NCBI GenBank assembly: GCA_903885795.1
Contig: CAISJV010000092.1
Span: 1 to 64,000, forward strand
Reading direction: 5' to 3'
DNA: 64,000 nucleotides
From: an uncultured delta proteobacterium
GTDB taxonomy: Bacteria > Desulfobacterota > Syntrophia > Syntrophales > UBA8958
Shown: positions 6,964 through 60,561 of the stretch, in pieces
Position numbering within the stretch: position 1 is the first letter of the stretch
Layout: each line of letters starts with the position of its first letter
Made by a program: the position numbers and the translations under genes
The notes under the pieces: generated by a model
What the model was told of the DNA's origin: nothing
The model's database searches: none
The model's input: the letters and a program-made list of their open reading frames with translations, nothing else

Positions 6964-7159
6964 TTGTCAGAAAACCTCCGCGGTTTCCGTCTGTATTTAA
7001 AAGGCGGCAGGCTGCCCGGAATGCAGCTTTTCGGGTGATCTGCCCTATCCGCCATGCAATAGCCTGAATCGACAGGACATCTTTTATCTGACAATCGGTA
7101 AATCGCTTACGTTTGCTTTCAGCCACTGATATATCCGCTCGGCGGCCACGCTTTTCCAT
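6944..7159 (-). CDS. Possible small phage protein, uncertain
   Basis: 71 residues, basic (MEKRGRRADISVAESKRKRF). It overlaps the upstream gene by 76 bases and the O-like gene by 20. No family is recognised and it may be a chance frame; it is listed because it fills the gap between two real genes in the same direction. Confidence 0.3.
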   Translation of the reverse strand: MEKRGRRADISVAESKRKRFTDCQIKDVLSIQAIAWRIGQITRKAAFRAACRLLNTDGNRGGFLTNEISKY

Positions 7160-59646: not shown

Positions 59647-60243
59647 TCACCCAATCTTGCTGAAGACTTCTTTGAATACTTCCACCGGTTGAGCGCCGAC
59701 TATCTTGTGTTTCTCATTGATGATGAATGTCGGCACCCCCGTTAGATTTATCTTTCTTCCATCCTTATGTGCCTGATCTAAAACTGATCTGTAACGCTTT
59801 TCTGAAATTGCCTTCATCATATCTTCGGTATCCAGTCCGCTTTCTGCCGCGACAGACGTGATGACGCCAATGCTTCCAATGTCATAGGCTTCCGTGAAAT
59901 AGAAACGGAACATGGTTTCGTGAAATATTTCATATTTCCCCATGGCACGGGCATATTCAGAGGCTTCCAGAGCAAGACGCGAATTGGACAGGAGTGTGTG
60001 ATTGCCGAAAACGATTCCAAGCTCCTTACCACGCTGGCGTAGGTGCTCGTACATCTGGGAAACATCATGACCTTTGAATCTCTCAGACAGCAGGATACCT
60101 TCAGGCGGCGTTTCTGGATGGAGTTCGTAGCTGATCCAGGTATCGTTAATGTCGTACGTCTTCTTGAGCTGATCGACAATACCCTTGCCGATATAGCAGA
60201 ATGGTCAGATGTAGTCGGAAAAGATTCTTATTTCGATACTCAT
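59647..60243 (-). CDS. Selenocysteine-containing DsbA/FrnE-family oxidoreductase
   Basis: 198 residues if the in-frame TGA at 60207-60205 (codon 13) is read as selenocysteine. The frame upstream gives MSIEIRIFSDYI, then U-P-F-C-Y-I-G-K; FrnE proteins have CPFC here, so Sec replaces the first active-site Cys. The downstream frame (FGNHTLLSNSRLALEASEYA, INLTGVPTFIINEKHKIVGA with the cis-Pro loop) is a normal thioredoxin-fold DSBA-like domain. A SECIS-like hairpin follows the TGA. Without Sec readthrough only a 12-residue peptide would form. It should catalyse thiol-disulfide exchange in the cytoplasm. Confidence 0.85.
60172..60192 (-). promoter_or_regulatory. Candidate bacterial SECIS hairpin
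   Basis: Starting 12 bases after the TGA (leftward), ATCGGC and GTCGAT pair (with one G-U) around the loop AAGGGTATT. A small stem with GG in the loop at this distance is what SelB recognises in bacterial selenoprotein mRNAs. Confidence 0.6.
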
Positions 60244-60273
60244 CTCGTGCCCTTATGAAAGATTTTTATATGA

Positions 60274-60561
60274 TTATTTTTTAGCTCCGTTGCCTACCAT
60301 TCCCTTCAACTCTTTCCCAACCTTGAAAAATGGCAGTTTCTTGGGCTTCACGCCAACATTTTTACCGGTCATGGGATTCCTTCCTGCGTACGCCTTGTAT
60401 TCCCTCACAGAAAAACTCCCGAATCCTCTGATTTCAATTCTGTCTCCCTTTTCCAGAGAATCCTTAAATCCGCCGAGGATTTGATTGATGATGTCCGTTG
60501 CTTGTTTATCGGTCAGGTTTTCTTTATTGGCCAGAGCTGCGATAAGGTCTGATTTGTTCAT
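60274..60561 (-). CDS. HU/IHF-family DNA-binding protein
   Basis: 95 residues. MNKSDLIAALANKENLTDKQ, GDRIEIRGFGSFSVREYKAY and GRNPMTGKNVGVKPKKLPFF are the HU/IHF core with the DNA-intercalating Pro loop. Sequence is closest to HU/IHF-beta types. A nucleoid-shaping protein; only 30 bases separate it from the selenoprotein start, so the two may be co-transcribed. Confidence 0.95.
   Translation of the reverse strand: MNKSDLIAALANKENLTDKQATDIINQILGGFKDSLEKGDRIEIRGFGSFSVREYKAYAGRNPMTGKNVGVKPKKLPFFKVGKELKGMVGNGAKK

Follow-up and report, generated by a model that had tools for sequence, protein, structure and literature searches.

The minus-strand gene at positions 60243 to 59647 of the window (the whole stretch of 64,000 nucleotides that was analysed) almost certainly encodes an FrnE-type oxidoreductase of the DsbA fold, most likely cytoplasmic, whose nucleophile is a selenocysteine (Sec) specified by an in-frame UGA. 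It is a well-supported further DsbA-like selenoprotein, from a family already described in 2005. The understanding of Sec decoding is left unchanged, but a gene that mechanical open reading frame (ORF) calling cuts to a piece devoid of active site is corrected, and well-supported UPFC and UPWC Sec forms with a conserved SECIS layout are added. A possible addition to knowledge is that this hairpin layout is common to two Sec branches. Table 1 presents the features of the locus.

Table 1. Features of the Sec gene and its immediate surroundings in the window.
Feature	Positions	Strand	Basis
Sec FrnE/DsbA-like thiol-disulfide oxidoreductase gene, 198 residues	59647..60243	-	Translation with TGA as U; Pfam DSBA; closest structure FrnE
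In-frame UGA, codon 13, read as Sec; first (nucleophile) position of U-P-F-C	60205..60207	-	Homologue column
Bacterial SECIS hairpin: 8-bp stem ATCGGCAA/TTGTCGAT, 5-nt loop GGGTA	60172..60192	-	Fold; fixed geometry
Putative Shine-Dalgarno-like AAGGG, 6 nt 5' of the ATG	60250..60254	-	Direct reading
Upstream HU-type DNA-binding protein gene, 30 nt before the ATG	60274..60561	-	Pfam Bac_DNA_binding, 100.7 bits

The frame starts at an ATG (60243-60241), meets a TGA at codon 13 (60207-60205), and ends at a terminal TGA (59649-59647). Read through the first TGA, the protein begins with MSIEIRIFSDYI-U-PFC, continues with YIGKG, and has no Cys after C16 in its translation. The U13-P-F-C16 motif is the DsbA active site, and lies at the start of helix 14-27 of the predicted structure. 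The Pfam DSBA profile (PF01323) matches residues 5-192 with 109.2 bits (cut-off 25.6). No NCBIfam model reaches its cut-off on the read-through protein, so that such genes may escape annotation, and a PHROGs match of unknown function (phrog_34943) is uninformative. In the mechanical ORF listing the frame starts at 60054 and comprises just 135 codons; the active site is thereby lost, together with the first strand. A preliminary description of this DNA had given the coordinates of the gene, its TGA, and its 198-residue read-through product, all of which translation reproduces exactly; its further statements, that the frame from 60054 lacks the N-terminal active site and that automatic annotation would call a truncated gene, agree with the 135-codon piece in the ORF listing. 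A scan of the window for read-through UGAs in redox-like motifs returned 20 frames, of which, judged by eye, only that at 60207 resembles a protein family.

Homologues were sought in 60 genomes of relatives together with the own genome of the window, and in genomes of named species, where 580 stretches were confirmed and the best 80 of them considered. The gene was matched in 12 of the 60 relatives. All 14 matches from the relatives and the own genome (two in the latter) carry a single TGA each and are otherwise free of stops, and in each of them the TGA aligns to residue 13; two of these loci, L034 and L036, read U-H-W-C and U-S-F-C. Among the best 80 of 580 named homologues, codon 13 is TGA in 52, TGC in 18, and TGT in 10, proportions that are not unbiased frequencies since the search patterns included the Cys active site. 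No other stop falls within the match in these best 80 of 580. The eight closest named loci among them all carry TGA, and four of the eight come from Smithellaceae or Syntrophaceae MAGs, a hint, short of proof, that the organism of the window may belong there too. This column, occupied by a TGA or a Cys codon, bears out the proposal that U-P-F-C stands where the family has C-P-F-C, and the random stops by which a pseudogene was to be recognized are absent from it.

The gene is patchily distributed. It is absent from all seven same-genus genomes and from all three other genomes of the same family (G001-G010), a pattern for which patchy loss or lateral transfer may account. Its nearest homologue (75%) sits in another family (G035). 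selA was found in 57 of the 60 relatives, and is present in six of the seven same-genus and two of the three other same-family genomes though the gene is absent there.

Comparison of the whole gene with the 75% identical L024 gave a dN of 0.157, a dS of 2.0, and a dN/dS of about 0.08, values that point to purifying selection on the entire frame. In the nine codons 5' of the TGA, 6.0 synonymous and 1.0 non-synonymous differences separate the two genes; the corresponding counts against the more distant L037 are 1.5 and 4.5, so that this short stretch is informative for the nearest pairs only.

The SECIS-like hairpin that the preliminary description had placed 12 bases past the TGA proved to be real: it is found in the fold, and its geometry is kept in most Sec homologues. 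Its 5' arm occupies 60192-60185, its loop 60184-60180, and its 3' arm 60179-60172, with 12 bases between the TGA and the stem. It belongs to the minimum-energy fold (MFE) of the 48 nt from the TGA, at -12.2 kcal/mol, a value equalled by 8 of 200 dinucleotide shuffles; when 71 nt are folded, the total energy does not stand out (49 of 200 shuffles reach it). Single-sequence energy is therefore weak evidence, and the comparative evidence is decisive. Free folding of the 48 nt past the codon gave a mean z of -0.84 in 66 TGA rows vs -0.29 in 28 Cys rows (Mann-Whitney p 0.062), and a G-loop hairpin was part of the MFE in 40 of 66 Sec rows vs 13 of 28 Cys rows. The free-energy test thus separates Sec from Cys homologues weakly, and it is not decisive because many U-P-W-C genes have a second, competing hairpin (the CCUGGUGCU side paired to AGUACCGGG). 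At the Rfam gathering cut-offs no SECIS family was detected in the window, where only tRNA and int-alpA were listed.

A fixed-geometry test, devised after the free-energy result was seen, scored the pairing of offsets +13 to +20 with offsets +26 to +33. Identical 48-nt rows were counted once, giving 64 of the 66 Sec rows, which include the window gene (L023), the broken L036, and the incomplete L031, L034, and L042. At least seven of the eight pairs are formed in 56 of the 64 distinct Sec rows (13 of 15 with UPF, 43 of 49 with UPW, UPY, and the like) but in none of the 28 Cys rows. Mean numbers of pairs are 7.27 and 7.24 in the two TGA groups, for which synonymous draws gave means of 5.68 and 4.62, and 4.33 and 4.53 in the Cys groups. 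A G occupies the second loop position in all 64 TGA rows vs 15 of the 28 Cys rows. The window hairpin itself forms 8/8 pairs, a score that 5.8% of synonymous codon draws reach. Compensatory changes between the two TGA groups affect pairs 4, 6, and 8 (GC/AT, CG/TA, and AT/CG, respectively); since the two groups differ in amino acids here, this covariation partly follows the protein, and it is the contrast with the Cys rows that carries the argument. Two betaproteobacterial homologues, L069 with TGA and L060 with TGC, group together in the tree (99/76). This pair represents a recent Sec/Cys switch, and its hairpin scores are 8/8 pairs in the Sec member vs 3/8 in the Cys member.

A reading of the UGA as Sec implies a Sec-decoding host, as had been anticipated, and the complete set of selA, selB, selC, and selD was indeed found in the genome around the window (4.0 Mb in 95 contigs, the window being C92; listed completeness 100, contamination 2.98). 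Profile searches gave 603 bits for selA, 382 bits for selB, and 392 bits for selD. The tRNA-Sec scores 75.6 bits in Rfam (gathering 47) and is called tRNA-SeC(tca) by ARAGORN; another Rfam tRNA-Sec match above the cut-off (47.2 bits) is a tRNA-Ser according to ARAGORN. The selD gene (L021, G000:C35:3662-4591) contains one in-frame TGA, and the SelD of this genome is probably itself a selenoprotein. Three DSBA matches were obtained in the genome, and two of them, the window gene and C70:4646-5215, carry an in-frame TGA. The second of these TGA-bearing genes (L001/L035, G000:C70:4646-5215) reads U-P-W-C and belongs, in the tree, to the other Sec branch; of the eight pairs in the family geometry it forms only six, and its MFE contains another hairpin instead. 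By analogy with known bacterial decoding, for which the factors are present, SelA and SelD would serve Sec synthesis on tRNA-Sec, SelB-GTP would bind the hairpin 13-33 nt past the UGA and carry Sec-tRNA to the ribosome, and the UGA would thereby be decoded as Sec.

Explanations of the TGA by a pseudogene, a sequencing error, or an alternative code are not tenable. If a DsbA-like gene had been truncated by a stop mutation in the Cys codon of its active site, a single base change from TGC or TGT would have sufficed, and damaged TGA-bearing copies do exist among the relatives, namely L036, whose frame is lost, and L042, which misses an internal stretch. L036 (G035:C63:31696-31857), the second copy in G035, is a decaying duplicate that retains the first ~53 residues including the TGA, with 74% identity, and then runs out of frame. 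In both damaged copies, however, the decay falls elsewhere than at the UGA. The pseudogene reading must moreover face a TGA that recurs in all 14 matches of the relatives and the own genome, and in 52 of the best 80 of 580 named homologues, never with a second stop, as well as a dN/dS of about 0.08 over the whole frame against L024, a hairpin kept only alongside TGA, and the presence of another TGA-bearing DSBA copy and of the full Sec machinery in the own genome; it is extremely improbable. The conversion of TGC or TGT into TGA by a sequencing or assembly error could be invoked for a genome in 95 contigs that is known here from its assembly alone, but dozens of independent genomes have TGA at this codon too, which makes such an error scarcely credible.

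That the frame is open once TGA is taken as sense would also fit an alternative code or general UGA read-through, with Trp, Gly, or another residue inserted instead of Sec. Yet the gene has its own terminal TGA where homologues end, all homologues without TGA among the best 80 of 580 have Cys at this position, conservation of the hairpin is restricted to UGA genes, and tRNA-Sec, SelA, SelB, and SelD are all present, so that the probability of this explanation is close to nil. The mechanical ORF call, for its part, would fit a short but functional protein, 135 codons long and translated from 60054, with the upstream part left untranslated. Such a protein would lack the active site as well as strand 1 and helix 1 of the fold, and the codons preceding the TGA show conservation at the protein level, most of their changes against L024 being synonymous (6.0 vs 1.0 over nine codons); we thus regard a short product as highly unlikely.

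With the UGA read as Sec, an AlphaFold model built with 11 sequences has a mean pLDDT of 94.5 and places residue 13 directly before helix 14-27. P171 adjoins the N-terminal side of strand 172-175, which we take to be the site where thioredoxin folds keep their cis-proline. The five best PDB rows in Foldseek are all Deinococcus radiodurans FrnE (5co3 best, with E 3.4e-15 and TM 0.90), followed by SCO1869, and the profile search ranks FrnE first (5cnw, E 8.2e-36), the next distinct protein being 3gl5 (E 6.1e-25). Profile (5cnw) and fold (5co3) matches therefore agree on the assignment to FrnE/DsbA made in the preliminary description. In the model, the protein begins two residues ahead of strand 1 (3-9), without space for a leader. 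We regard it as most probably an oxidoreductase of the FrnE type that works in the cytoplasm and has Sec as its nucleophile. The selenolate of U13 would most likely attack disulfides or other oxidized thiols, leading to a U13-C16 selenenylsulfide that an outside reductant, for example thioredoxin or a small thiol, would reopen. An outside reductant is proposed because the protein has no other Cys and no C-terminal CxxxxC as in D. radiodurans FrnE. The predicted role is the reduction or isomerization of disulfides in the cytoplasm by means of the Sec nucleophile.

DsbA-like selenoproteins have been reported several times. The available excerpts of the 2005 Sargasso Sea selenoproteome describe a DsbA-like family (COG2761, PF01323) with a UXXC motif, nine sequences, and a SECIS figure (PMC1088965), and those of a 2006 survey name DsbA-like selenoproteins from Anaeromyxobacter dehalogenans, Desulfovibrio desulfuricans, and Desulfotomaculum reducens (PMC1794560). 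The family also appears in the excerpted parts of reviews of 2022 and 2026 (PMC9312934, PMC13188914), and two Asgard archaeal members are mentioned in an excerpt from 2024 (PMC11227280). As far as these excerpts go, the window protein shares with the COG2761 selenoproteins the DSBA domain and a Sec in first position of UxxC, its gene shares with theirs a SECIS right past the UGA whose small apical loop contains a G, Sec members of the family are reported from Deltaproteobacteria, and no difference in kind between the window protein and the family was found.

According to extracts of a paper on FrnE, these proteins are predicted cytoplasmic oxidoreductases of the DsbA family with a CP(W/F)C active site; for the D. 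radiodurans protein a role in reducing disulfides in the cytoplasm is proposed, with regeneration aided by a C-terminal CxxxxC, and this motif occurs in many FrnE proteins but is lacking from some Cys members, hence is not a strict requirement of the subfamily (PMC8945050). D. radiodurans FrnE (DR_0659; PDB 5cnw, 5co3) is the best profile and fold match of the window protein, which differs from it by a Sec instead of the first Cys, by a length some 60 residues below that of the 260-residue chain, and by the missing C-terminal CxxxxC. The second-best match in both fold and profile is SCO1869, a putative DsbA oxidoreductase from Streptomyces coelicolor (PDB 3gl5), with 20% identity over the fold alignment; it is not named as a selenoprotein in these matches. 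The DsbG-like/Rcas_1661 family (seleno)lipoprotein (NF041057) is likewise a thioredoxin-like UxxC selenoprotein. Its model gives 29.9 bits against a cut-off of 190, over residues 86-195 only, and, unlike this lipoprotein type, the window protein as modelled would have no room for a lipoprotein leader. A search of the open-access literature found nothing pairing a bacterial selenoprotein with FrnE, or a selenoprotein with Syntrophales, which is not proof of absence.

A tree of 90 proteins (62 Sec, 28 Cys) was rooted at the midpoint. The incomplete or broken L031, L034, and L036 had been omitted beforehand, and L042 was left out as too short; the counted loci overlap, as identical proteins from L025 and L039 are both in the tree. 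The Sec label changes 5 times on this tree, vs a mean of 24.0 when shuffled. Nine rows, the window gene among them, make up a Sec clade with good support (99/91). The surrounding group of 16 contains two Bathyarchaeota Cys rows, and the sister group of 18 is entirely Cys. This U-P-F-C clade stands apart from the larger U-P-W-C branch, which comprises 48 Sec and 8 Cys rows. With a midpoint root, gains and losses of Sec are indistinguishable. We offer tentatively, and consider rather doubtful, the idea that a separate Sec FrnE branch, sister to Cys forms, is made up of the U-P-F-C proteins (those of this order, plus lone members from Actinobacteria and Peptococcaceae MAGs) and would have gained Sec independently of the U-P-W-C branch. 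The SECIS geometry shared by the two branches, in which an 8-bp stem starts at base 13 and the second base of the 5-nt loop is G, would then be a layout set by SelB and not by common descent.

Co-transcription of the window gene with the HU-type gene listed in Table 1 is possible. No conserved neighbour was seen by eye at 10 related loci, so that a functional link, including one to the HU-type gene, is not supported. Elsewhere in the window, an int-alpA RNA match (6987-7055), whose score equals the Rfam gathering cut-off exactly (35.8 bits), gives a hint of an integrated element.
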